The notes under the pieces were generated by a model. The model did not search any database. It was given only the letters and a program-made list of their open reading frames with translations, and was not told the origin of the DNA. The translations under genes and the position numbers were made by a program. Shown one piece after another: positions 5,391-28,119 of a stretch of 34,199 bases of DNA. The DNA comes from a virus, in IMG/VR virus record IMGVR_UViG_3300027491_000246, positions 1 to 34,199 of that record; one strand, written 5' to 3'. Numbering within the stretch: position 1 is the first letter of the stretch; each line of letters opens with the position of its first letter.

Positions 5391-6329
5391 TCACACTCCA
5401 TTCGCGCCAGCCCGGCGGGCCAGCAATTGCTGTCGCTTGATGTACTTCGCCTGCCGGTTCTCGCGGCGCTCCCGCTCCCGGCGGCGGGCCGGGCTCTCCC
5501 GGGTCCACTCCTGGGGAGTGAAGGCGGGCCATTCGCGGTCGGCGTACCGGGTTCGGATGTGCGCCCAGGCCTCGCCCGAGGCGATCTCGGCATGCGTCCA
5601 CTGGCAATAGGCCAGATCATGGAGCCACTGCGTCCGGTCCGGCCGGATCAGGTCTGCCCCGATCTCGTGTGCGGCCACGGGCCAAGCCATGCTGCCGCGA
5701 TCACCAGCGATCACCGGGACCCCGGCGAGGACGGCATCGACCAGGCTGTTGCTGTTCCAGGCGATCACCGCGGCGGCGCCGGCGAGGGCTTCCTCGAGGC
5801 TGCCGCCGAGAACTTCGGCCGGATGCTGTTCGGCACTGCGCTGCAGCGGATGCGGCCGGTACCGGACCGGCAGGCCGTAGGCCTTGGCCTTCTCGCAGGC
5901 CTCGCGCAGCCATCCGGGATAGTCCGGACAGGTCGCCAGGCTGGCGTCTCCGGTGACTTGACCCATCACCAGGATGTAGTCGCCGCCCTCCTTCCATGGA
6001 GAGACCGGAACGCCGTGCTTTGCCCAGCGATCGCCGGGCATGCCTTTGGCGAGAAACTCTGCGTGCCCGTTCAGGCCGTTGAAGCCCAGGCTGACGAATA
6101 CCCGGCGGCGGTCGCCGAAGTAGGCAAGCTCCATCACCAGGTAGTCCTGCCCGATCCGCTTCTGCCCCCGGATGATGTGGGGCATCCGGTGCCCCCATAT
6201 CACTGCAAGGTCGGCGGGCTCCCACTGGTGCCGGCGGCGCCACAGCGGGTTGATGCCGTGCGCCTTGAGGCCGCGCTCGACCAGCTGCGCCTGTGTCCGG
6301 CCCGGCGGGTCGTAGATGACGACCTTCAC
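5391..6329 (-). CDS. glycosyltransferase-like protein (GT-B/KpsS-like fold)
   Basis: A 312-residue protein starting GTG at 6329 in a GTGA overlap with the methyltransferase gene upstream. Residues about 195-225 (AVIAWNSNSLVDAVLAGVPV followed by IAGD) resemble the C-terminal nucleotide-sugar domain of GT-B and capsule-export (KpsS-type) proteins, where a short SNSLVDAVL helix is followed by a G-P/V strand. The C-terminal 50 residues are very basic. Phage genes of this kind may glycosylate virion proteins, surface polysaccharide or DNA, but no acceptor can be deduced here. The location inside the late operon suggests expression during virion assembly. Family confidence is moderate, substrate unknown. 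Confidence 0.6.
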   Translation of the reverse strand: MKVVIYDPPGRTQAQLVERGLKAHGINPLWRRRHQWEPADLAVIWGHRMPHIIRGQKRIGQDYLVMELAYFGDRRRVFVSLGFNGLNGHAEFLAKGMPGDRWAKHGVPVSPWKEGGDYILVMGQVTGDASLATCPDYPGWLREACEKAKAYGLPVRYRPHPLQRSAEQHPAEVLGGSLEEALAGAAAVIAWNSNSLVDAVLAGVPVIAGDRGSMAWPVAAHEIGADLIRPDRTQWLHDLAYCQWTHAEIASGEAWAHIRTRYADREWPAFTPQEWTRESPARRRERERRENRQAKYIKRQQLLARRAGANGV

Positions 6330-6913
6330 CGCCAGAGCACTCCGATGCCCATGGTGCTTTCGGCGCCGATGAACTCGCGGTGCTTGTGCTGGTCGCGGAT
6401 CTCGCGCCACAGCCGCGGCACCTCCACCTGCATGTCGCTCCAGGCCTGGCCGTCACCTGCGATGTCGTGGAACGCCACGATCCGGGCCATGGGCCCGTAG
6501 GTCAGCCAGTCGGCTTTGACGCCGGCATAGCGGTGGTCACCGTCGATCAGGGCAGCATCGAACGGCCCCTGCTTCCGGATTGCCTCGATCACCTCGGCCG
6601 AGGCGCTGTCTCCGAAGAGGCAGCGCGCATCGATGCCGCGGTTCTGCAGGTCGGCAACCGCAGCGTTCAGCGCATGGCGGCTGCTTTCCTTCCCCCAGGA
6701 TCCGCCCGGCAGGTCCACGGCGAGGCCTCGACTACCTTTTGGCAGGGCGAGCATCACATCGTGGAACGTGTCTCCGTGGCGGGCGCCGATCTCGAGGTAT
6801 GTGCACACGCCCTCGGCCTGCAGCAGCTGGATCAGCGGGCCGATCTCATCGACGTGCTGTGACGCCCGGCGACCGCTGAAGGTCTTGGGGCGCAGGATGT
6901 CCGGCGTTGCCAT
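6326..6913 (-). CDS. class I SAM-dependent methyltransferase (Methyltransf_24-like)
   Basis: A 195-residue protein with a Rossmann-type SAM fold. CTYLEIGARHGDTF (about residue 37) is motif I, GLAVDLPG is the acidic strand-2 end, and PFDAALIDGDHRY (about 120) matches the D-G-D-H pattern of Methyltransf_24 proteins. Such enzymes often modify sugars or small metabolites. The ATG at 6913 overlaps the upstream stop, and its own stop overlaps the GTG of the glycosyltransferase-like gene, so the pair probably acts on the same substrate, for instance O-methylation of a sugar. That link is inference. Confidence 0.78.
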   Translation of the reverse strand: MATPDILRPKTFSGRRASQHVDEIGPLIQLLQAEGVCTYLEIGARHGDTFHDVMLALPKGSRGLAVDLPGGSWGKESSRHALNAAVADLQNRGIDARCLFGDSASAEVIEAIRKQGPFDAALIDGDHRYAGVKADWLTYGPMARIVAFHDIAGDGQAWSDMQVEVPRLWREIRDQHKHREFIGAESTMGIGVLWR

Positions 6914-8409: not shown

Positions 8410-8838
8410 CTATGCTTCGAGGACGTCTACCCCGTTGCCGCAGCCATTTTCGTAGAGGCTGGCGATCTCAACTGCCTCGCGAGCTGACTTACCACAGTGC
8501 ATCGCGGCGACTGCAAAGTCTCGGCCGCTGCCCATGGCGAAGAAGGGCTGCTCGAACACGAGCGGGATCGGGCCGCTCTCATACTTGAGGATTCGCCCCC
8601 CATCAATGACCAGGCAGCCGCAGCTGCGGTCATCATTCTGCTGGACGGCGGGGTACTTCTCGCGCTCCCGGCCGTTCTCGATCCATTCCAGCATTTCCAT
8701 GCCGGCCGATAAGTTCCCGGCAATGCCCACGAGCAGATCCCCGATGCGGCGAATCTTGGTGGTGGTGCTGATCAGGCCGGACGCGACTGCACGCTTGTCG
8801 GCGGCCAGGGTCTTACCATCCCATGCAATGACGGTCAT
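8410..8838 (-). CDS. proteasome-beta/HslV-like Ntn hydrolase
   Basis: A 142-residue protein beginning MTVIAWDGKTLAADKRA. If the initiator Met is removed, Thr2 is the N-terminal nucleophile of the Ntn-hydrolase fold; Asp and Lys in the AADKR region fit the proteasome-beta/HslV catalytic set. LLVGIAGNLSAGMEMLEWI and FAMGSGRDFAVAAM match the core HslV strands and helices. The GGAGCC before the ATG at 8838 is a good ribosome site. Phage genes of this family are known but their targets are not; possible roles are processing of head or scaffold proteins or degradation of host factors. There is no HslU-type ATPase gene in the window. Confidence 0.8.
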   Translation of the reverse strand: MTVIAWDGKTLAADKRAVASGLISTTTKIRRIGDLLVGIAGNLSAGMEMLEWIENGREREKYPAVQQNDDRSCGCLVIDGGRILKYESGPIPLVFEQPFFAMGSGRDFAVAAMHCGKSAREAVEIASLYENGCGNGVDVLEA

Positions 8839-8921: not shown

Positions 8922-8997
8922 TGGTGCGCCCCGCAGGCTTCGAACCTGCACCAGCCTCATTACGAGTGAGGTGCTCTGCCAGTTAAGCTAAAGGCGC
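8922..8997 (-). tRNA. tRNA-Thr (anticodon CGT)
   Basis: A complete 76-base cloverleaf on the minus strand. Acceptor GCGCCTT pairs with GGGGCGC (two G-U), followed by discriminator A and an encoded CCA. The D-arm is GCTT...AGC, the anticodon stem CCTCA/TGAGG holds loop CTCGTAA (anticodon CGT, reading ACG), and the T-arm is GCAGG-TTCGAAG-CCTGC. It starts only eight bases after the terminator at 9005-9030, so it has no room for its own promoter and should be made from the antiterminated late transcript. It is probably a phage tRNA, not an integration remnant, because it lies far from the integrase. Confidence 0.92.
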
Positions 8998-10629: not shown

Positions 10630-11357
10630 GCGGCACTCCAAAGTTCGATCTGCTCACTGCCGATCCACACGGGCGCGCTGTTGTGAATCTCGATCCGCTC
10701 GGCGATGACCTCGGCACGCTGAGCTGCAGTCGGGGGCACGTACATCCCAAAGCGGGATTGCGCGCCGCAGTTCACGGTAGCGTTCGTAGAGTCCGCAGAT
10801 GCAAGCGGCAGGCGAGTGAAGATGTCCGGGTCCAACATACGGAGCCCGTGTAAGCGGCAATGCGGGCGGCCTTCGGCATCGCACATAACGGCCATAATCT
10901 CGGCCATGCGGCCCCACCATGATTTCGTGCCAGGGTTCGGCCACTGGCCAGAAGAGCCAAGCGCGACGACGGGCCAATCTGCGGCCAGGCGCTCGGCGCG
11001 CTCCAAGTCCTCATGCATGTGATAGACCGGGACCCCGGGAATATCGCGGGGCCAGTCCGCCAGCATGGCGTCGTTTTCCGGCTCGCCGCCGTCGATGACG
11101 TCAGGGATCAGGGCCCATTCGAAACCCGGGTGCTTGCGCCACTCCTCGCACCAGGCAATGTAGCCCGGAACGTCGAGTGTCTCTCCCCGGGTCCAGGCGC
11201 TAAACGCGCCGTTGTCGAAGACGAACGACCGACAGACGTCCGCAACGATGCCCATGTCGTCCCTGCGCGGGAACGGTACAAGAGCGTCCCGGTTATTCAG
11301 GAAGCGGGCGACATCCTTGCGGGTGCCACCGGCTGGCGTGCCGTGATACTTCTTCAT
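10626..11357 (-). CDS. TGT/DpdA-like TIM-barrel protein
   Basis: A 243-residue protein from ATG 11357 (ATGA overlap). It opens MKKYHGTPAGGTRKDVARFL; the motif FVFDNGAFSAWTRGE is where tRNA-guanine transglycosylases have DSGGFQ. WALIPDVIDGG supplies a barrel strand-end Asp, and HGLRMLDPDIFTRLPLASAD followed by ST recalls the L-G-x-G and DSADST regions of TGT/DpdA enzymes. DpdA proteins insert 7-deazaguanine derivatives into phage DNA to block restriction. No preQ0 synthesis or import gene is seen here, so the substrate is uncertain. It is smaller than bacterial TGT (about 375), and the superfamily call is from motif reading. Confidence 0.5.
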   Translation of the reverse strand: MKKYHGTPAGGTRKDVARFLNNRDALVPFPRRDDMGIVADVCRSFVFDNGAFSAWTRGETLDVPGYIAWCEEWRKHPGFEWALIPDVIDGGEPENDAMLADWPRDIPGVPVYHMHEDLERAERLAADWPVVALGSSGQWPNPGTKSWWGRMAEIMAVMCDAEGRPHCRLHGLRMLDPDIFTRLPLASADSTNATVNCGAQSRFGMYVPPTAAQRAEVIAERIEIHNSAPVWIGSEQIELWSAA

Positions 11358-19438: not shown

Positions 19439-20044
19439 ATGGCCCGCCAGATCAAGATCGACACCCAGGGCAAGGGCGCCGTCACCTCTATCGAGGTTGA
19501 TGGCATCCGGATCGACATCGGCCAGGAAGTGCCAGCTGTTGCTGCGGAGCCCGCCGCCACCCCGTCCATGCTGGACGCGCTCTACCGCCCGCAGATGGTC
19601 AAGATCGGCGCCGACGGCAAGCGCATGGCCGATGACGCCACCGGCCACGTCGCCGTACTCCTCCCGCAATACGGCCTGATGTACGACGCCCGCGCCTCCG
19701 AGAAGGCAAGCAACTGGGCCCAGGCCGTCGAAATGGGCTCCGCCTGCGACCTGCTCGGCTTCACCGACTGGGAACTCTGGGACGACGTCCAGGCGCAGCT
19801 GATCCTCCGCCGCGATCTGCCGCGCCCGTTTGTGGACACCAATTTCTTCCCCAACATACCGACCAGCGACTGGACCTGGACCCGGACGCGCTACAGCCCG
19901 TCCCCTTCGGATTTCGCGTTCTCCGTCTACTTCAACGACGGCCTCGTCCTCTGGTCCATCCAGGACGACCTCGGCTTCGTCCGTGCCTGCCGCCGCGTGC
20001 CCGCCAGTCAGGTCCTGGGCTTTTTGGCAGGAGGCTCGCTGTGA
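19439..20044 (+). CDS. DGR target protein 1 (DUF1566/C-type-lectin-like)
   Basis: A 201-residue protein. Residues 1-45 are a distinct N-terminal segment; MADDATGHVAVLLPQYGLMY (about 62-81) starts the shared core, and the C-terminal part (FGFTDWELW ... FFPNIPTSDW) follows the DUF1566-type lectin layout. VR1 covers residues 155-190, leaving a ten-residue tail LGFLAGGSL after it. Eleven codons in VR1 have been altered relative to TR, placing Leu, Asp, Ser, Ile and Tyr where TR has Asn. Lectin-fold proteins display variable residues on a binding face. The partner is unknown; there is no signal peptide, so it may be a virion or cytosolic protein. Confidence 0.88.
   Translation: MARQIKIDTQGKGAVTSIEVDGIRIDIGQEVPAVAAEPAATPSMLDALYRPQMVKIGADGKRMADDATGHVAVLLPQYGLMYDARASEKASNWAQAVEMGSACDLLGFTDWELWDDVQAQLILRRDLPRPFVDTNFFPNIPTSDWTWTRTRYSPSPSDFAFSVYFNDGLVLWSIQDDLGFVRACRRVPASQVLGFLAGGSL
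19900..20008 (+). repeat. DGR variable repeat VR1
   Basis: 109 bp aligned without gaps to TR 21922-22030. 15 substitutions, every one at a TR adenine (of 25 adenines); 84 of 84 non-adenine positions identical. The last 36 bp (GGCTTCG to GCCAGT) are invariant and GC-rich, fitting the initiation-of-mutagenic-homing site. The base after it is C where TR has G. Confidence 0.97.
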
Positions 20045-20409
20045 ACAGCGGACGTTGCGCCGCGAGCGAAGCGGAAGCTGCCGAGGACGCGCGCCTGGCT
20101 TCGGATGACGCCATCTGGAAGGTCTACGGCAAGGCCGCAACCGAAGAGGCCGCGAAGTCCATCCTGAACTCCCGCGAGTCGTGGGATGCCACGGGCGACG
20201 CACTGTCCGACTTCTCCCAGGCCGAGCTCTGCAACCTCGCTCACTGGATCGTGCACAACGACCTGCTCGAAGTCGGCCGCATCGTCGCAAAGAAGGTCAT
20301 GGAGTTCGCCCGCGCCGAGGCCGCCGACTCGCCGAAGGCCATGGAGATCGCGCGTCGGATGGACGCCGAGGGCTCTGCCTCCGCTCGCGAACTGCGGAGG
20401 GCTGCGTAA
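20041..20409 (+). CDS. hypothetical protein between DGR targets
   Basis: A 122-residue acidic, helical protein starting GTG 20041 in a GTGA overlap with target 1. The core (DAIWKVYGKAATEEAAKSIL and ELCNLAHWIVHNDLLEVGRI) is unlike Avd or lectins. It could be a chaperone or partner for the target protein, given the tight coupling. No family recognised. Confidence 0.62.
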   Translation: MNSGRCAASEAEAAEDARLASDDAIWKVYGKAATEEAAKSILNSRESWDATGDALSDFSQAELCNLAHWIVHNDLLEVGRIVAKKVMEFARAEAADSPKAMEIARRMDAEGSASARELRRAA

Positions 20410-20672
20410 TGCCCTACGTCACCATCGAAATCCCCGGCGGCCTGCACCCAGAACAGGTCGCCAAGATTTACGGCGATGCGACCAAGCAGCTGGCGGACCT
20501 GAATGGCATGCAGTCCAAGCGCGTCGCCGAGCAGCCGACACTGGTGTTCCGCGTGTTCCCGATGGAGCAGGCCAAGCCCTCCCCGCCCAAGGTCGTCTCC
20601 CTGGTCGAGCGCCGGAAGGCGTGCGGGCGCAGCTATCACTTCACCCCCGACTTTCCCCCGTCCGCCGCCTGA
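20409..20672 (+). CDS. small alpha/beta protein between DGR targets
   Basis: An 87-residue protein, MPYVTIEIPGGLHPEQVAKI followed by a helix and a strand TLVFRVFPMEQ, then a Pro-rich tail. The start (Pro2, beta strand, G-x-L, helix) resembles the 4-oxalocrotonate tautomerase fold, but I do not claim activity. ATG 20409 overlaps the upstream stop (TAATG). Confidence 0.55.
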   Translation: MPYVTIEIPGGLHPEQVAKIYGDATKQLADLNGMQSKRVAEQPTLVFRVFPMEQAKPSPPKVVSLVERRKACGRSYHFTPDFPPSAA

Positions 20673-20691
20673 CCGGCATCTAGGAGCCTTC

Positions 20692-21390
20692 ATGTCCGCC
20701 ACTATCACCCAGCGTGTCTCGCGCCTCGAGCGCCAGATCCGCGCTGAAGCCAAGCAGAAACTGGCCGCCGAAGTCGAAGCCGGCTTCGCCCCGGCCTTTG
20801 CCCTCGCCGCCAACGATCCGAAGATTCTCCAGAGCCTCAAGGAGCAGCGCGCCGCTGTCATCAAATCCAAAGCCGCGGAGACCGAGAACCAGGCGCTGGA
20901 ATCGTTCCTGCAGCGCGCCTCGCCGAACATGTCGGCGCAGGAGTTCTTCTTCCCCCGCAAGGTGAAGCTAGACGCCACCGGCAACCAGGTCGCCGACGAC
21001 GCCACGGGCCACGTCGCCGTGCTGCTGCCGGCTTTCGGCCTGCAGTTCGATGCGGGTAAGCCTGCCCTGGCCAAGAACTGGGCGGAAGCCAAGAAGCTGG
21101 CCGCCGCAGTCCGGACCTTCGGCGCCGAGGACTGGACGCTGCCGGAAGTGCACGAACTGCAGTTGCTGATCGACCGCAAGCGCCGCGAGCCGGCGATCGA
21201 CACCACCTACTTCCCGGCCACGCCGACCGACTACTGGTACCACACGGCTACCGAACTGGTCTCTGCGGACAAGAAGTCCCCTTCGGATTACGCGTTCTAC
21301 GTCTACTTCGGCAACGGCGCCGTCGGCTGGCTCAACCAGGGCAACAGCGGCTTCGTCCGTGCCTGCCGCCGCGTGCCCGCCAGTCAGTAA
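20692..21390 (+). CDS. DGR target protein 2 (DUF1566/C-type-lectin-like)
   Basis: A 232-residue protein with AGGAGCC before ATG 20692. Residues 1-75 are a coiled-coil-like helix (RVSRLERQIRAEAKQKLAAE); then VADDATGHVAVLLPAFGLQF, a core shared with target 1, and EDWTLPEVHELQLLIDRKRR with DYWYHTATEL, the DUF1566 layout. VR2 forms residues 196-231 and the protein ends one residue later, the classical C-terminal position. Seven VR2 codons differ from TR. The helical N-terminus could attach it to a fibre or trimer. It is a paralogue of target 1 with a different N-terminal anchor. Confidence 0.9.
   Translation: MSATITQRVSRLERQIRAEAKQKLAAEVEAGFAPAFALAANDPKILQSLKEQRAAVIKSKAAETENQALESFLQRASPNMSAQEFFFPRKVKLDATGNQVADDATGHVAVLLPAFGLQFDAGKPALAKNWAEAKKLAAAVRTFGAEDWTLPEVHELQLLIDRKRREPAIDTTYFPATPTDYWYHTATELVSADKKSPSDYAFYVYFGNGAVGWLNQGNSGFVRACRRVPASQ
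21276..21384 (+). repeat. DGR variable repeat VR2
   Basis: 109 bp aligned without gaps to TR. 12 substitutions in seven codons, all at TR adenines; no non-adenine change. Its 36-bp 3' end equals that of VR1 and TR. Followed by CAGTAA, so the repeat ends at the stop codon. Confidence 0.97.
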
Positions 21391-21422
21391 TTCGGCCTTT
21401 CGACACTAACTAGAAGGCTCTC

Positions 21423-21866
21423 GTGAAGCCCATTCTCCCGTCCATCGTGAAGGATTCGGAACGCCTGCTGGTCGATGTGACCGCAGCTGCTGCCCGATTC
21501 CCCAAGGCTCATAAGTACCAGTTGGGCCAAGACCTTCGCGGCTGGGCGCTGGAATGCTTCCTGTTGTCTCAGGAAGCGTGGCGGGCTTCGCGGGAGCCGA
21601 CTAGGCAGGTTGCCGTCCTCACCAATCTCGCGGCCTCGAACGACAAGCTCAAGGCCGGACTACAGGTTGGCTACAAGCTGCATTGCTTCCCCTCGCTGGG
21701 GGCCTTCGAGGTTCTCGCCACCCAAGCCCGCAACGTCGGCAAGCAGTGCGGCGCCATGCATAAGAAGATCAAACCGCATCTCAATGGGCAGAGTTCGCCG
21801 GCCTCCGCGCCGTCGAAGCGTCCCGAGACACTGAGTACCCCTTCCGCCCACGAGGCCCAACGATGA
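21423..21866 (+). CDS. avd: Avd accessory variability determinant (four-helix bundle)
   Basis: A 147-residue basic protein. FPKAHKYQLGQDLRGWALEC and the Leu/Ala-rich helices that follow (TRQVAVLTNLAASNDKLKAG, LGAFEVLATQARNVGKQC) match the four-helix-bundle Avd family, which forms a pentameric barrel, binds the reverse transcriptase and template RNA, and is needed for mutagenic cDNA synthesis. The C-terminal 25 residues are Ser/Pro-rich. Start GTG 21423 follows AGAAGG. It sits between target 2 and the reverse transcriptase, and its stop overlaps the latter's ATG (ATGA). Confidence 0.9.
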   Translation: MKPILPSIVKDSERLLVDVTAAAARFPKAHKYQLGQDLRGWALECFLLSQEAWRASREPTRQVAVLTNLAASNDKLKAGLQVGYKLHCFPSLGAFEVLATQARNVGKQCGAMHKKIKPHLNGQSSPASAPSKRPETLSTPSAHEAQR

Positions 21867-23209
21867 CGGGGCAGCGCTACCAGACCGGATGCGCTGCCGA
21901 GTCCAAAGAGATGGGGGGAGCGTCCCCTTCGGATTACGCGTTCTACGTCAACTTCAACAACGGCAACGTCAACTGGAACAACCAGAACAACAACGGCTTC
22001 GTCCGTGCCTGCCGCCGCGTGCCCGCCAGTGAGTGTCAAGATGCCGCGCGAGTTGAACTGCGCGACCTGATCCATGCATGGAAGGAGGCGCGCCGCGGCA
22101 AGGTGCCCAGCCTCAACCAGACCGGCTTTGATGCCAATTGGGCCGATAACCTGCTGACCCTGCAGGAGCAGCTCAACGCCGGAACGTGGGCGCCAAAGCC
22201 GTCAATCTGCTTCATCGCCACGGCGCCGAAAGCCCGCGAGATTCATGCTCCGGATTTCTCAGACCGCGTCGTCCATCACCTGGTGATTCCGAAGCTCGAA
22301 GCCATCTTCGAGCCCAAGTTCATCTTCGACAGCTTCGCCAACCGTGTCGGCAAAGGCACACACGAGGCCGTCAATCGCCTCAAGGGGTTCTTCCGCGAGG
22401 TGCACAGCGGCCATCGCGGCGGCTACTTCCTTCAACTCGATATCCGCAACTTCTTCAACACCATTCACCGGCCGACGCTGTACAAGCTGCTGAAGGCGCA
22501 AATGGAGAAGGCCGGGCTTCCGCTACTGGACCAGCGCGTGATCCACGCGCTGCTGCGCCGGTCCCCGCTGAAGCAGGGCGTCGTCTACCGGGCAACGACC
22601 GAGGAGCGCGCTGCGGTGCCTCCACACAAGCGCCTCGAGAACGCGGCGCCTGGTTGCGGCCTGCCCATTGGCAACCTGTCATCCCAGTTCTTCGCCAACG
22701 TCTACCTCAACGAACTCGACCAGTTCGTGAAGCATGTCCTGAAAGCGAAGCGGTATCTGCGCTATGTCGATGACTTTGTGCTGGTGCACGAGAGCCGCGA
22801 GCAGTTGGAGGCCTGGAAGGGCGACATTGAGCGATTCCTAGCCGAGCGGCTGCGCCTGCGGCTCAAGAACGAGGTTCGCCTGGCGCCCCTGACAGAGGGC
22901 TGTGACTTCCTCGGCTACGTGATCCACCCGACGCACACCACCGTTCGGCCCAGGGTGATCCAGCACGCCCGGGAGAAGCTCTGGGCCTTCCAACAGCGCC
23001 ATGCCGCCAACGGCGCCCTGCGCGTCACGCCTGAGGCATACGACGCCGGAAGGGCTATCTGGGCCTCATATCAGGGGCACTTCGCCCATGCCAGCAGCCA
23101 CCGACTGACGGCTGATTTTCATCACCGCTTTCCCTGGCTGCGCGCCTTCCAGCGCCGCCGCCGCTTCGACCACAGCCTGGCCGGGCAACCGGTCGCGATC
23201 CACTACTGA
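21863..23209 (+). CDS. DGR reverse transcriptase, reading frame spans TR
   Basis: A 448-residue frame. Residues 21-56 are the translated TR; the RT proper begins at about 65 (DLIHAWKEARRGKVP). Motif 3 LQLDIRNFFNTIH has catalytic Asp193; motif 4 GLPIGNLSSQ (266-275) is the DGR-type sequence in place of the usual QG; motif 5 RYVDDFVL holds Asp303-Asp304; motif 6 CDFLGYVI follows. The enzyme reverse-transcribes TR RNA with adenine-specific errors. ATG 21863 overlaps avd, so this is the natural start, but an internal GTG at 22019 would give an RT without the TR part. No Met lies between TR and the RT core. Confidence 0.93.
   Translation: MTGQRYQTGCAAESKEMGGASPSDYAFYVNFNNGNVNWNNQNNNGFVRACRRVPASECQDAARVELRDLIHAWKEARRGKVPSLNQTGFDANWADNLLTLQEQLNAGTWAPKPSICFIATAPKAREIHAPDFSDRVVHHLVIPKLEAIFEPKFIFDSFANRVGKGTHEAVNRLKGFFREVHSGHRGGYFLQLDIRNFFNTIHRPTLYKLLKAQMEKAGLPLLDQRVIHALLRRSPLKQGVVYRATTEERAAVPPHKRLENAAPGCGLPIGNLSSQFFANVYLNELDQFVKHVLKAKRYLRYVDDFVLVHESREQLEAWKGDIERFLAERLRLRLKNEVRLAPLTEGCDFLGYVIHPTHTTVRPRVIQHAREKLWAFQQRHAANGALRVTPEAYDAGRAIWASYQGHFAHASSHRLTADFHHRFPWLRAFQRRRRFDHSLAGQPVAIHY
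21922..22030 (+). repeat. DGR template repeat TR
   Basis: 109 bp with ten AAC codons and 25 adenines, most in a central run (AACAACGGCAACGTCAACTG and beyond). AAC is the typical DGR codon because adenine mutagenesis of it yields many residues but no stop. It lies between avd and the RT core, the usual place for the template. The next base is G (22031), where both VRs have C. Confidence 0.97.
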
Positions 23210-23215
23210 GGCCCC

Positions 23216-23290
23216 ATGAGCGCCAAATCCCGCAAAGGCAAGATCCGCCGCCAGCGCCAAGAGCGGCGCGAATCGAAGAGGTATGCGTAG
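23216..23290 (+). CDS. 24-residue basic peptide (doubtful)
   Basis: Reads MSAKSRKGKIRRQRQERRES then KRYA. Strongly basic, and its TAG overlaps the GTG of the methyltransferase gene (TAGTG), which hints at coupled translation. No clear ribosome site. It may be a leader that couples the RT and methyltransferase genes. Confidence 0.35.
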   Translation: MSAKSRKGKIRRQRQERRESKRYA

Positions 23291-24972
23291 TGCGCTTCGG
23301 CTCCGTCTGCAGCGGCATCGAGGCCGCGTCCGTCGCCTGGCATCCCCTGGGCTGGCGCGCGTCCTTCCTTTCCGAGATCGAACCCTTCCCCCGCGCGGTC
23401 CTCGCGCATCACTACCCGGACGTTCCCCTGCATGGGGACTTCACGACCATCGAGCACGGCCAATATGAATCAATCGACCTTCTTGTGGGAGGAACCCCCT
23501 GCCAGGACTTCAGCGTCGCCGGAAAGAGAGCAGGCCTGGACGGTCAGCGTGGCAACCTCACGCTCGAATATGCTCGCCTTGCTCGGCGCCTCGGCGCCCG
23601 CTGGCTGGTATGGGAGAACGTCCCCGGCGTGTTCAGCAATAACGATGGACGTGACTTCGGAGCCGTCCTCGCCTGCTTCGCCGGATACCCTGACGGCTAC
23701 ATCTTCCCTCCCCCTGCAGATGGCTGGCGCAATGCCGGCATCGTCCCGCCCGCCGGTCCCCACGGTCACGGCCTCGCCTGGCGAGTGCTTGACGCTCAGC
23801 ACTTCGGAGTTCCACAGCGCCGCCGTCGCGTGTTCGTTGTCGGATATCTTGGAGACTGGCGACCTGCCGCAGCGGTACTTCTTGAGCTCCACAGCCTGCA
23901 AGGGCATCCTGCGCCGCGCCGCGAAGCGGGGAAAGGATCTGCCGTCGGCACTCTGCGCCGCACTGACGGCGGCAGCGACGTCGACCACGGCCTCGCTGGT
24001 CACCTGATCACCGGGCCGCTGCAGGCCGGCGGCGAGAAGTCTGCCGGCAGCGCGACCCAGCAGGATGCCGAGTCCGGCCTGCTGGTAGCTTTCGGCGGCG
24101 GCAAGAATTGCAACGAGACCGACATCGCGACCGCCGTGACCGCCCATCCTGGCGGTTATCGGATGGACTTGGACAGCGAAACTTTCGTCGCGCACACCCT
24201 CAAGGGCGAAGGCTTCGACGCCTCAGAGGACGGGACGGGCCGGGGGACGCCGCTGGTCCCGGTCGCCTTTGCCATCCAAGAGCGCGCGGTCTGCGAGAAC
24301 CCGGACGCGGGCCCTGATGGCGCGGGCTTCCGTAGCGACAATATGGCATACACGCTGGAGGCGCGGACGGTACCGCAGGCGGTCGCCTTCACCGCGCAGG
24401 ATCACGGCGGCGATGCGCTCGAGGACTGTGCCCCTACCCTGCGCGCTGGCGGGCACGCGGGCAGTCACGCGAATGCAGGCGTCATGCCGGCGGTCGCATA
24501 TGGCCTGCGCGGCGATGCTGGTCGCAGCGGGGAAGCGAAAACACCGAGCGCCGATGCAGAAGGCCGCGTGCGGCTGCGCGACGCTGGGTTCAACGCCTAC
24601 GAGGAAACCGCGCCGACACTTGATGCCAGTCAGCCTCACAGCGTCGGGACCGCTTCGGCCGTCCGCCGCCTGACCCCGCGCGAGTGCGAACGCCTGCAGG
24701 GATTCCTCGACGACTACACCCTGATTCCATACGGCCGCCCCAGTAAGGCCAAGCTCGACGCCGACTTCCTCAAGTACCAGCTGCGCGGCAACCCCAAGCA
24801 CCTGACGCGCGAGGATGTCGAGCGCTTGGCCGCCGACGGCCCGCGCTACAAGGCTCTGGGCAACAGCATGGCTGTCCCCGTTATGGCTTGGGTGGGCAAG
24901 CGCATCCAGCAGGTGGAATTGATCTCCGCCGACTACGGCCCGCTGCAGGTCCAGCACCGGAGGGCGGCGTGA
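23290..24972 (+). CDS. DNA cytosine-5 methyltransferase
   Basis: A 560-residue enzyme. MRFGSVCSGIEAASVAWHPL is motif I, GGTPCQDFSVAG motif IV with nucleophile Cys71, WENVPGVFSNN motif VI, QRRRRVFVVGY motif VIII, and YKALGNSMAVPVM motif X near residue 525. Between VIII and X lies a long insert with recurring segments (AYTLEART, APTLRAGGHAG, APTLDASQ) spaced tens of residues apart, as in some phage enzymes with more than one target domain. It methylates cytosine at C5, probably to protect phage DNA from host restriction. Start GTG 23290. No partner endonuclease is present. Confidence 0.93.
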   Translation: MRFGSVCSGIEAASVAWHPLGWRASFLSEIEPFPRAVLAHHYPDVPLHGDFTTIEHGQYESIDLLVGGTPCQDFSVAGKRAGLDGQRGNLTLEYARLARRLGARWLVWENVPGVFSNNDGRDFGAVLACFAGYPDGYIFPPPADGWRNAGIVPPAGPHGHGLAWRVLDAQHFGVPQRRRRVFVVGYLGDWRPAAAVLLELHSLQGHPAPRREAGKGSAVGTLRRTDGGSDVDHGLAGHLITGPLQAGGEKSAGSATQQDAESGLLVAFGGGKNCNETDIATAVTAHPGGYRMDLDSETFVAHTLKGEGFDASEDGTGRGTPLVPVAFAIQERAVCENPDAGPDGAGFRSDNMAYTLEARTVPQAVAFTAQDHGGDALEDCAPTLRAGGHAGSHANAGVMPAVAYGLRGDAGRSGEAKTPSADAEGRVRLRDAGFNAYEETAPTLDASQPHSVGTASAVRRLTPRECERLQGFLDDYTLIPYGRPSKAKLDADFLKYQLRGNPKHLTREDVERLAADGPRYKALGNSMAVPVMAWVGKRIQQVELISADYGPLQVQHRRAA

Positions 24973-25163
24973 GCCTGCTCGAAACCCTTGAAGAGGGCGC
25001 CCGCTCGGCCGCCCACTATTCGCCGCAGGACACCGATGGCGCGCTACGGAGCCGCGTTGCGTTTCTGAGCGGATATCTCAGGGACTACCCGAGCGCTGCG
25101 GCGGCAATGGACCTGGTCCTCAAAGGCGAGCAGCCGGCGCAGAAGACCGGAGACGAGGCATGA
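24969..25163 (+). CDS. hypothetical small protein
   Basis: A 64-residue protein from GTG 24969 (GTGA overlap). MSLLETLEEGARSAAHYSPQ and then two amphipathic helices; acidic. It couples the C5 methyltransferase and ASCH genes. Unknown function. Confidence 0.6.
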   Translation: MSLLETLEEGARSAAHYSPQDTDGALRSRVAFLSGYLRDYPSAAAAMDLVLKGEQPAQKTGDEA

Positions 25164-25615
25164 AGGCCCTGACCATCTGCCAGCCCTACGCACATCTGAT
25201 CTGCGTGACCAAGGAGAAGGGCGTGGAGAACCGCACCTGGCCGACCCGGTACCGCGGCGCCTTGCTGATCCACGCCGGCAAGTCGCGCGACTGGCTCGAC
25301 ATAGAGGACGGGGAAGACGTCGACTACGAGTACGGCATCCCTCTGGCCGACATGACGTTCGGCGCAGTGATCGGCGCCGCAACCCTGCACGATTGCCTCC
25401 ACGTCGAAGCCATCCGTAGGGGTGACTACGACGCCCGCATTCCGTGGCTCAAGACCCACGAGCACACCGAAGGGCCCTGGTGCTGGGTCCTGACCAATCG
25501 CGTCATGTTCCCCCAGCCGGTCCCGTACAAGGGCCAGCAGGGCCTGTTCGACATCCCTGACGAGGTGGTGGTGGAGCAGATCACCGCCGTCCGCGCGGCG
25601 AGGGCCGCAGCATGA
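25160..25615 (+). CDS. ASCH-domain (PUA-like) protein
   Basis: A 151-residue protein. MKALTICQPYAHLICVTKEK followed by KGVENRTWPTRYRGALLIHA is a recognisable ASCH start (the W/P-x-x-Y-RG and HAGK region), with AVIGAATLHDC and PWCWVLTNR in the later strands. ASCH proteins bind RNA or DNA, and some act on modified nucleosides. Placed between two methyltransferases, it may recognise modified bases, which is inference. ATG 25160 overlaps the stop of the small gene before it. Confidence 0.82.
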   Translation: MKALTICQPYAHLICVTKEKGVENRTWPTRYRGALLIHAGKSRDWLDIEDGEDVDYEYGIPLADMTFGAVIGAATLHDCLHVEAIRRGDYDARIPWLKTHEHTEGPWCWVLTNRVMFPQPVPYKGQQGLFDIPDEVVVEQITAVRAARAAA

Positions 25616-28119
25616 CCGATCCCTACCGCCAGTTCCTGGAGGGGAAGGTGCGCATGGCGCAGGCCTGCGGGTTTGAGGTTGATCCGGCCGACATCAATCC
25701 GATCCTCATCCGCCACCAGCCCGACATCGTCCGCTGGGCCGTTGCCGGCGGCCGGCGCGCCATCTTCGCCCGATTCGGCCTGGGCAAGTCGATCATGCAG
25801 ATGGAGGCTTGCCGTCTCACCCTGAAGTACTCCGGGGGCGACTATGGCCTGATCACCTGCCCGCTGGGTGTCCGGCAAGAGTTCCGCCGTGACGCCGTCG
25901 AGGTCCTTGGCTGGGACAAAGCGCCTCGCTTCATCCGCACCGATGCCGAGATCGATGAGCCGGGGCTCTATCTCACGAATTACGAGTCGATCCGTGAGGG
26001 GAAGCTGACCCCAGCCCGCTTCAAGGTGGCCAGCCTGGACGAGGCGAGCGTGCTGCGCTCCTACGGTTCCAAGACCTACCAGGAGTTCATGCCGCTGTTC
26101 GCCGAGGTGCCGTACCGCTATGTCGCGACCGCCACTCCGGACCCGAACCGCTACAAGGAACTGATCCACTACGCAGGCTTCCTGGGGATCATGGACACCG
26201 GCCAGGCGCTGACCCGCTTCTTCCAGCGCGACAGCACCCAGGCCAACAACCTGACGCTGTACCCGCACAAGGAGAAGGAGTTCTGGCTCTGGGTCCATTC
26301 CTGGGCGGTGTTCCTGCAGCGCCCCAGCGACCTGGGCTATTCGGATGACGGCTACGAGCTGCCCGAAATGCGCGTGCACTACCACGAGGTCAAGGTAGAC
26401 CTCGCTGACGCCGGCGCAGATCGCGACGGGCAAACCAAGCTGTTCCGGGATGCGGCCCTGGGATTGCAGGACGCTGCGCGGGAGAAGCGCGACAGCCTCC
26501 CGGCGCGCGTTGCCAAGCTCGCCGAGGTACTGCAGGCGGAACCCGGCCGACACGCGATCCTCTGGCATGACCTCGAAGCCGAGCGCCACGCCATCAAGGC
26601 CGCGGTACCGGAGGCGGTCGAGGTGTTCGGTTCTCTGGACCTCGACACCCGCGAGCAGCGCGTCATCGACTTCAGCAACGGCCAGTTCCAGTACCTGGCC
26701 ACGAAGCCCGAGCTATCCGGATCCGGCTGCAACTTCCAGCGGCACTGCGACATGGCCGTCTTCGTAGGCATTGGCTACCAGTTCCACGACTTCATCCAGG
26801 CCATTCACCGCATCTATCGCTTCCTGCAGAAGAACGTCTGCGACATCCACATCATCTATGCCGAGACCGAGCGCGAGATCCTGTCGGACCTGCGTGCGAA
26901 GTGGGCCCGGCACGAGGAACAAGTCGAACGTATGTCCGAAATCATCCGCGAGCACGGCCTCAACAGCCTGAGCATGGCTCAGATTCTCACCCGCTCCATC
27001 GGCGTCAAGCGCATCGAAGCGCAGGGCCATGGTTGGCATGTGGCCAATAACGACTGCGTGGAAGAGACGCGCGCCATGGAGCCGAACTCCGTCGACCTGA
27101 TCGTCACGTCGATCCCATTTGCTAACCATTACGAATACACGCCGAGCTACAACGACTTCGGGCACACCGAGAACAATGACCACTTCTGGCAGCAGATGGA
27201 CCACCTGACGCCGCAGCTGCTCAGGATCCTGCGGCCGGGCCGCATCTACTGCTGCCACGTCAAGGATCGCATCCAGTTCGGCAACGTCACCGGTGCAGGC
27301 GTGCCTACGGTCTCGCCTTTCCACGCGGAGGCCCTGTTCCATGCCCGAAGCCATGGCTTCGACTACCTGGGCATGATCACCGTGGTCACCGATGTGGTCC
27401 GGGAGAACAACCAGACCTATCGCCTGGGGTGGTCGGAGCAATGCAAGGACGGCACAAAGATGGGTGTCGGCTCGCCGGAGTACATCCTGATCTTCCACAA
27501 GCCCCAGACCGATCGCAGCCGCGGCTATGCGGACGTGCCGGTCACCAAGTCAAAGTCGAGCTACACCCGGGGCCGCTGGCAGGTCGACGCACACGCCTTC
27601 TGGCGCAGCAGCGGCAATCGCCTGGTGACCGCCGAGGAGCTCGCCGGCATGGGCCCGGACATTCTGGCCAAGGTGTTCACCGACTACAGCCTGCAGAACG
27701 TCTACGACTACGAGACGCACGTCCGCATCGGTGAAGAACTCGAGGCGCGAGGCGCGCTGCCAGCGACCTTCATGAGCCTGGCCCCGGGCAGCCACAACGA
27801 TGACGTCTGGCACGACGTCAACCGCATGCTGACGCTGAACGGTGAGCAGACCCGGCGCGGCTTGGAGAACCACGTCTGCCCCCTCCAGTTCGACATCGTT
27901 GACCGTCTGATCAACCGCTACAGCAACCCGGGCGAGCTGGTGTTCGATCCGTTCGGCGGCCTCTTCACCGTTCCCTACCGCGCCTTGGGCCTGGGCCGCC
28001 GCGGACGCGCCGTCGAACTCAACCCCGGCTACTTCCTCGATGGCGTGAAGTACCTGGAGGCCAAAGAGCGGCAGATGGCAATGCCGGACCTCTTCGGCGC
28101 TCTCGGCGAAGCCGCATGA
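25612..28119 (+). CDS. SF2 helicase-DNA methyltransferase fusion
   Basis: An 835-residue protein with two modules. The first 430 residues are an SF2-like ATPase: Walker A GLGKS (56-60), DEAS box (143-146), TATPDPNR motif III and QAIHRIYRFLQ as motif VI. The second module has methyltransferase motif IV TSIPF (499-503), normally TSPPY or DPPY, and motif I FDPFGG (778-783) after it. This IV-before-I order is the beta class of N4-cytosine/N6-adenine methyltransferases. The Ile in motif IV is unusual. There is no nuclease domain. It recalls helicase-methyltransferase antirestriction proteins such as P1 DarB; here it could modify incoming or replicating DNA. Confidence 0.85.
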   Translation: MTDPYRQFLEGKVRMAQACGFEVDPADINPILIRHQPDIVRWAVAGGRRAIFARFGLGKSIMQMEACRLTLKYSGGDYGLITCPLGVRQEFRRDAVEVLGWDKAPRFIRTDAEIDEPGLYLTNYESIREGKLTPARFKVASLDEASVLRSYGSKTYQEFMPLFAEVPYRYVATATPDPNRYKELIHYAGFLGIMDTGQALTRFFQRDSTQANNLTLYPHKEKEFWLWVHSWAVFLQRPSDLGYSDDGYELPEMRVHYHEVKVDLADAGADRDGQTKLFRDAALGLQDAAREKRDSLPARVAKLAEVLQAEPGRHAILWHDLEAERHAIKAAVPEAVEVFGSLDLDTREQRVIDFSNGQFQYLATKPELSGSGCNFQRHCDMAVFVGIGYQFHDFIQAIHRIYRFLQKNVCDIHIIYAETEREILSDLRAKWARHEEQVERMSEIIREHGLNSLSMAQILTRSIGVKRIEAQGHGWHVANNDCVEETRAMEPNSVDLIVTSIPFANHYEYTPSYNDFGHTENNDHFWQQMDHLTPQLLRILRPGRIYCCHVKDRIQFGNVTGAGVPTVSPFHAEALFHARSHGFDYLGMITVVTDVVRENNQTYRLGWSEQCKDGTKMGVGSPEYILIFHKPQTDRSRGYADVPVTKSKSSYTRGRWQVDAHAFWRSSGNRLVTAEELAGMGPDILAKVFTDYSLQNVYDYETHVRIGEELEARGALPATFMSLAPGSHNDDVWHDVNRMLTLNGEQTRRGLENHVCPLQFDIVDRLINRYSNPGELVFDPFGGLFTVPYRALGLGRRGRAVELNPGYFLDGVKYLEAKERQMAMPDLFGALGEAA

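Follow-up and report, generated by a model that had tools for sequence, protein, structure and literature searches.

The question raised by IMG/VR virus record IMGVR_UViG_3300027491_000246 is how a diversity-generating retroelement (DGR) marks off its template when that template lies inside the reading frame of its own reverse transcriptase (RT). The analysed DNA, called here the window, is the entire record of 34,199 bases. It carries integrase, CI-like repressor, endolysin, terminase and portal-type genes, and is therefore a temperate-phage fragment, in which the DGR cassette is located between the repressor on one side and the integrase on the other. This DGR is complete: the template repeat (TR) paired with variable repeats (VRs), an Avd protein, a DGR-type RT and two targets with an Lcl_C domain are all present and intact. 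The system is of a known kind, and its template RNA appears to take a new form. Our overall reading, which we hold with high confidence, is a temperate-phage DGR whose RT and Avd direct adenine mutagenesis of two lectin-fold targets, and whose template sits within a conserved folded RNA scaffold. The cassette contains the following genes and repeats.

19439-20044, plus strand: target gene 1 (201 aa), Lcl_C/DUF1566 lectin-fold protein with VR1
19900-20008, plus strand: VR1, 15 substitutions relative to TR, at adenines only
20009-20028, plus strand: VR1 3' flank motif, starting with CAG and containing a T-run; clade consensus CAGTAATYGGCYTTTTGG
20692-21390, plus strand: target gene 2 (232 aa), helical hairpin plus Lcl_C/C-type-lectin fold with VR2
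21276-21384, plus strand: VR2, 12 substitutions relative to TR, at adenines only
21385-21404, plus strand: VR2 3' flank motif, from the comparison of clade VR flanks
21423-21866, plus strand: avd (147 aa), stop codon overlapping the RT start (ATGA)
21863-23209, plus strand: RT open reading frame (ORF; 448 aa) with GLPIGNLSSQ and YVDD motifs, starting upstream of TR and running through it
21922-22030, plus strand: TR, 109 nt with 25 adenines, in frame within the RT ORF

TR, VR1 and VR2 align without gaps. A preliminary description of this DNA had reported two 109-bp VRs that differ from one TR at adenines only, and our recount agrees with it exactly. VR1 shows seven A to T, five A to C and three A to G changes, and VR2 shows eight A to G, two A to T and two A to C; all 27 changes fall at adenines and none of the 84 other TR positions is altered in either VR. 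The probability that every substitution hits an adenine by chance is 2.8e-12 for VR1 and 1.7e-9 for VR2. No additional TR or VR copies were found within the 34 kb record.

The two target genes are paralogous and the VRs form their 3' coding ends, i.e., the C-terminal end of a C-type-lectin-fold protein, where a DGR target is expected to vary. Both VR-bearing genes carry the Lcl_C domain according to Pfam (2.8e-8, just under the curated cut-off, for target 1, and 1.3e-18 for target 2), which supports the earlier view of a complete cassette with two targets. The AlphaFold2 model of target 2, with a predicted local distance difference test score of 93.5, shows a helical hairpin plus a C-type-lectin fold, and its best fold match in the PDB is the C-terminal domain of Legionella Lcl (8q4e). 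Two small genes (20041-20409 and 20409-20672) are found between both targets.

Avd matches the PHROG family "Avd protein of DGR" (1.1e-10), with matches below the cut-offs of Pfam and NCBIfam. Its AlphaFold2 model shows four helices over residues 7-120 with the fold of BPP-1 Avd (4dwl/8ub7), and the last 27 residues (121-147), encoded by the stretch that forms the RNA scaffold, are a low-confidence tail predicted to be disordered. The PHROG RT match (6e-96) begins at residue 69 (about 22067), and the best RT match in the PDB according to phmmer is the BPP-1 DGR RT (8ub7, 7e-37). The Avd homologue and the DGR-type RT of the preliminary description were thus both recovered; it had placed them next to the repeats, which is right as to their presence and wrong as to TR, located within the RT reading frame. 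Its reading was therefore sound but incomplete, having missed the probable translation of TR as the RT N-terminus and the conserved RNA around TR.

Relatives were collected by two scans of viral contigs and one scan of genome contigs, which gave some 80 loci with RTs about 55-67% identical to that of the window; 55 loci were left after dropping those more than 90% identical around TR. These 55 were picked by the motif ACTGAGT upstream of RT, and the few loci without it are contigs that end upstream, or L109. A search permitting changes at adenines only found 104 VRs in the 55 loci. In 51 of them, a start codon at the avd/RT junction (50 ATG and one GTG) opens in frame across TR into RT, and therefore RT is most likely translated through TR. 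L085 uses a second ATG four bases on and was scored as an exception, and L092 and L214 have an open frame and no junction start codon. TR is read in a different frame in L089 and L188, still free of stops, and the peptide itself is not conserved there. In the window, the RT start is ATG 21863, with GAGG 7 nt upstream, and the only later in-frame starts ahead of the RT homology are ATG 21911 and GTG 22019.

The structure of the RNA around TR was predicted with RNAalifold on 12 loci and again on the 55, and the main helices agree. Its elements in the window are listed below.

21778-21781, plus strand: P0 5' arm, pairs with 22039-22042
21786-21824, plus strand: hairpin P2, within the 3' coding end of avd; each of its 12 pairs has changed on both sides in the clade
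21827-21834, plus strand: clamp P1 5' arm, GACACT of GACACTGAGT
21838-21844, plus strand: P3 5' arm, pairs with 21910-21916; 96.6% of cells paired, double changes at 7 of 7 pairs
21846-21856, plus strand: hairpin P3a, whose 3' arm holds the RT Shine-Dalgarno GAGG
21871-21897, plus strand: hairpin P3b, within the first RT codons; 93.6% of cells paired
21910-21916, plus strand: P3 3' arm, ending just ahead of TR
22030-22037, plus strand: clamp P1 3' arm, AGTGTC, immediately past TR
22039-22042, plus strand: P0 3' arm, from the clade pairing count

For the whole scaffold (40 pairs in 55 loci), 93.0% of cells are paired versus 74.8% when shuffled, and double-change cells number 354 versus 96. Since the structure was drawn from the same family, the excess of paired cells is favoured by that alone, but the double changes that vanish on sliding are not: when the partner is slid by 1-3 columns, pairing drops to 30-47%. 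Changes on both sides were found at 31 of the 40 pairs. The clamp P1 consists of 6 bp between NNNACT in the avd 3' end and AGTNNN right after TR, and 329 of its 330 cells pair, the sole mismatch being in L158. Position 3 of P1 is C-G in 16 loci, U-A in 14, U-G in 12, A-U in 11, G-C in one and mismatched in one, and position 2 is A-U in 50, G-C in two, C-G in one and G-U in two. No Rfam 15 model matches the scaffold up to E = 5. In a subgroup of six loci (L098, L099, L103, L104, L117 and L130), ACTGGGC replaces ACTGAGT and TR ends near CCAGCC; the TR-end pairing seems to be shifted.

In the mechanism that we propose, RT and Avd would make adenine-mutated complementary DNA (cDNA) from the TR RNA, and this cDNA would overwrite the 3' coding ends of both lectin-fold targets, which presumably bind a ligand. 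The avd 3' end, the RT start region, TR and the bases after TR would fold as one conserved RNA, in which the clamp P1 would join both TR ends, close the template and set both cDNA ends, with P2, P3, P3a and P3b directly upstream. The scaffold would bind RT-Avd and fix the cDNA start on the 3' side and its stop on the 5' side, and RT would be translated through TR because the scaffold belongs to the avd-RT message itself. This function is proposed by analogy with BPP-1, where cDNA synthesis is primed by the spacer after TR, which folds and recruits RT-Avd, and is stopped by a motif in the avd 3' end (PMC12875486). As in BPP-1, functional RNA would border the template on either side (PMC12875486); the avd-end and spacer RNAs of BPP-1 would correspond here to the avd tail with P0, P2 and P1, and to the RT-coding stretch past TR that holds the P1 3' arm.

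More tentatively, a single message may act as both avd-RT mRNA and mutagenesis template by means of a switch, and the scaffold class, absent from Rfam, may occur widely among the DGRs of several bacterial phyla and of their phages; we regard this extended proposal as possible, at less than even chances. In the folded state, P3a would hide the RT Shine-Dalgarno and P1 would close the TR ends, so that the molecule serves as template, and in the opened state, ribosomes leaving avd would unfold the scaffold and RT would be translated through TR. A rather unlikely alternative is that the folded RNA acts mainly in translational control, with P3a hiding the Shine-Dalgarno so that RT synthesis depends on ribosomes that unwind the hairpin as they complete avd, and with any role as cDNA scaffold being secondary. 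It agrees with the Shine-Dalgarno-like core being within the P3a 3' arm in 54 of 55 loci (7-8 nt before the ATG in 49 of 51) and with the avd stop overlapping the RT start in 47 of 52; however, P1 pairs with bases past TR, needless for such control, and L006 also has the element immediately ahead of TR, with an RT open frame that does not begin until 670 nt past TR.

The preliminary description also called the cassette active or recently active, and suggested comparing the VRs of related phages and counting changes per TR base. We compared 56 pairs of sister loci, 88-100% identical, which share members and hence are not independent. VR turnover is confined to sites under TR adenines, of which 1177 of 1983 (59%) differ, versus 100 of 7150 other VR sites (1.4%); TR differs at 43 of 6033 sites (0.7%) and the surrounding sequence at 10979 of 146431 (7.5%). 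The pair L205/L209 differs at 36 of 46 VR adenine sites, none of 169 other VR sites, none of 109 TR sites and 254 of 3325 sites elsewhere. Furthermore, when mismatches of every kind were counted across 100 nt in 12 loci, differences appeared at 321 of 595 adenine positions versus 29 of 1905 others, most of the latter past the repeat edge. Among the relatives, VRs therefore diversify naturally with a constant TR, and the claim of activity stands for them; for this individual phage, activity is suggested by two VRs that diverged differently with no background mutation. That its DGR died recently, leaving VRs as frozen relics of earlier activity, is improbable: a single genome is available for this phage, and three sister records (L159-L161) are identical throughout, VRs included, but every ORF is intact, YVDD is kept and neither VR shows background mutation relative to TR.

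Fourfold sites differ less in the codons before TR (0.348) than in the RT core (0.537), and the third-position excess is 1.30 before TR versus 2.06 in the RT core, which suggests that selection acts at the RNA level ahead of TR. An ordinary DGR whose TR merely overlaps the RT gene, with an apparent structure due to coding constraint on the avd and RT ends, is hardly credible. In its favour, both TR flanks are coding, and group 3 of Schillinger et al. 2012 already comprises DGRs whose TR overlaps either end of the RT ORF (PMC3521204). Against it stand the changes on both sides of most pairs, with a sharp loss when partners are slid by one base, a codon-position signal that is weaker ahead of TR than in the RT core, with fewer synonymous changes, and a clamp P1 that stays paired in L089 and L188 despite their different TR frame.

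A covariance model of the upstream part of the scaffold (R1), trained on the close relatives, was then applied to other loci. Among 47 sources, it matched 17 untrained, more distant DGR loci at E < 0.01, every one on the same strand as RT and most of them with their end at TR; they include L006 (64 bits, 8e-15), L005 (58 bits, 4e-13), L130, L011, L094 and L098. The match ends at most 36 nt from the TR start in 13 of 18 examined loci, and the titles of matched records include Methylococcaceae, Tepidiphilus, Gallionella, Ectothiorhodospira, Desulfobulbales and Nitrospirae. A 6-bp P1, whose TR-end sequence is AGTGAA or AGTGAT, was found in L009, L010, L011, L017, L027, L041 and the weakly scoring L014. 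Across 250 whole genomes from the order of the Dokdonella genome, the strong matches (L234-L236) all adjoin a DGR RT, L235 being a training locus. The weak matches L237-L239 (E 7e-6 to 6e-4), with no RT within the 3 kb examined, were taken as chance. R1 does not match phages Magia, Haboob, SC_8, 1F273, QDWS or BPP-1. The longest-stem complementarity of TR flanks shows no excess in other DGRs (10.56 versus 10.55) and is only weakly raised in the clade itself, and therefore the scaffold signal needs an alignment or a covariance model. The Magia, Haboob, SC_8 and QDWS phages (L240, L241, L242 and L244) have some 150 nt of another conserved sequence in common just upstream of TR, perhaps a further scaffold class.

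BPP-1-type DGRs have a GC-rich inverted repeat with a GRNA loop 4-34 bp after VR (PMC3240598). In our clade, the conserved flank occupies that place, with CAG directly after VR in 103 of 104 VRs; in the window, the first base past the repeat is G after TR and C after both VRs. This flank may be the recipient mark of VR.

Several points weigh against the proposed scaffold and its role. The 55 relatives share ancestry, and therefore the double changes are not all independent events. The start codon of L084 is out of frame with RT, and L109 (379-500) retains RT and GTGAGTATC beside it with no upstream element and no detectable TR, and looks like a decayed DGR. A BPP-1-type GC-rich hairpin is missing from the clade VR tails (6-bp stem in 3 of 104 versus 3.6% of shuffles, no GRNA loop), as is a weak 3-5 bp stem. 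Lastly, the scaffold function is drawn from BPP-1, and this phage is represented by the sequence of one genome.

The cassette shares with BPP-1 (mtd-avd-TR-brt) the order target-avd-TR-RT, adenine-specific mutagenesis, the Avd fold and a related RT (29.8% identity); the structure of the BPP-1 DGR ribonucleoprotein has been solved, according to PDB titles 8ub7-8ube. In BPP-1, however, TR is located between avd and brt instead of inside the RT frame, there is one target instead of two, and neither the RNA model nor the hairpin after VR is common to both. TR lies within the 5' end of the RT ORF as in group 3 DGRs, but the portion of that account available to us (PMC3521204) does not describe the overlap as a structured RNA or a translated RT extension. 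DGRs often have more than one VR (28.6% of them), and DUF1566 proteins are known as targets (PMC6642488); as here, one DGR of Stenotrophomonas sp. SKA14 diversifies several DUF1566 proteins, in a study that did not deal with the RNA (PMC6642488). Burkholderia phage Magia, Pseudomonas phage Haboob and Shewanella phage vB_Sb_QDWS likewise show small targets followed by a four-helix Avd-like protein and RT, with two VRs per TR, and in Haboob and QDWS a cytosine methyltransferase gene follows shortly after RT, but the sequence upstream of TR differs in all three. The openly searchable literature yielded no mention of the scaffold, of its covariation or of the Shine-Dalgarno overlap; subscription papers, including that on the BPP-1 ribonucleoprotein structure, were outside this search, and therefore priority is uncertain.

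No tail genes were found among the scanned genes of the record, and the cassette does not adjoin any identified tail gene. The GenBank phage set contains no near-identical phage, and the exact TR 3' sequence has no matches in viral contigs. Directly 3' of the DGR, 23290-28119 encodes a 560-aa C5 cytosine methyltransferase and an 835-aa helicase plus N4/N6 methyltransferase. Elsewhere in the prophage, there are a tRNA-Thr (anticodon CGT; 8922-8997, minus strand), a protein with a weak proteasome-subunit match (8410-8838; E 2e-4, below cut-off) and a SAM methyltransferase domain (Methyltransf_24; 6326-6913) with lysis genes on one side and terminase genes on the other.

How DGRs choose the start and stop of their cDNA, and the single RNA that is mutated, is mainly known from one phage. 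A covarying scaffold common to dozens of DGR phages offers exact base pairs to break and restore, and the RNA model is a tool to search for TRs from the RNA side. In these phages, the same bases serve the template RNA and ribosome binding and encode the ends of two proteins, which suggests that the Avd tail and the RT N-terminus owe their sequence largely to RNA structure.

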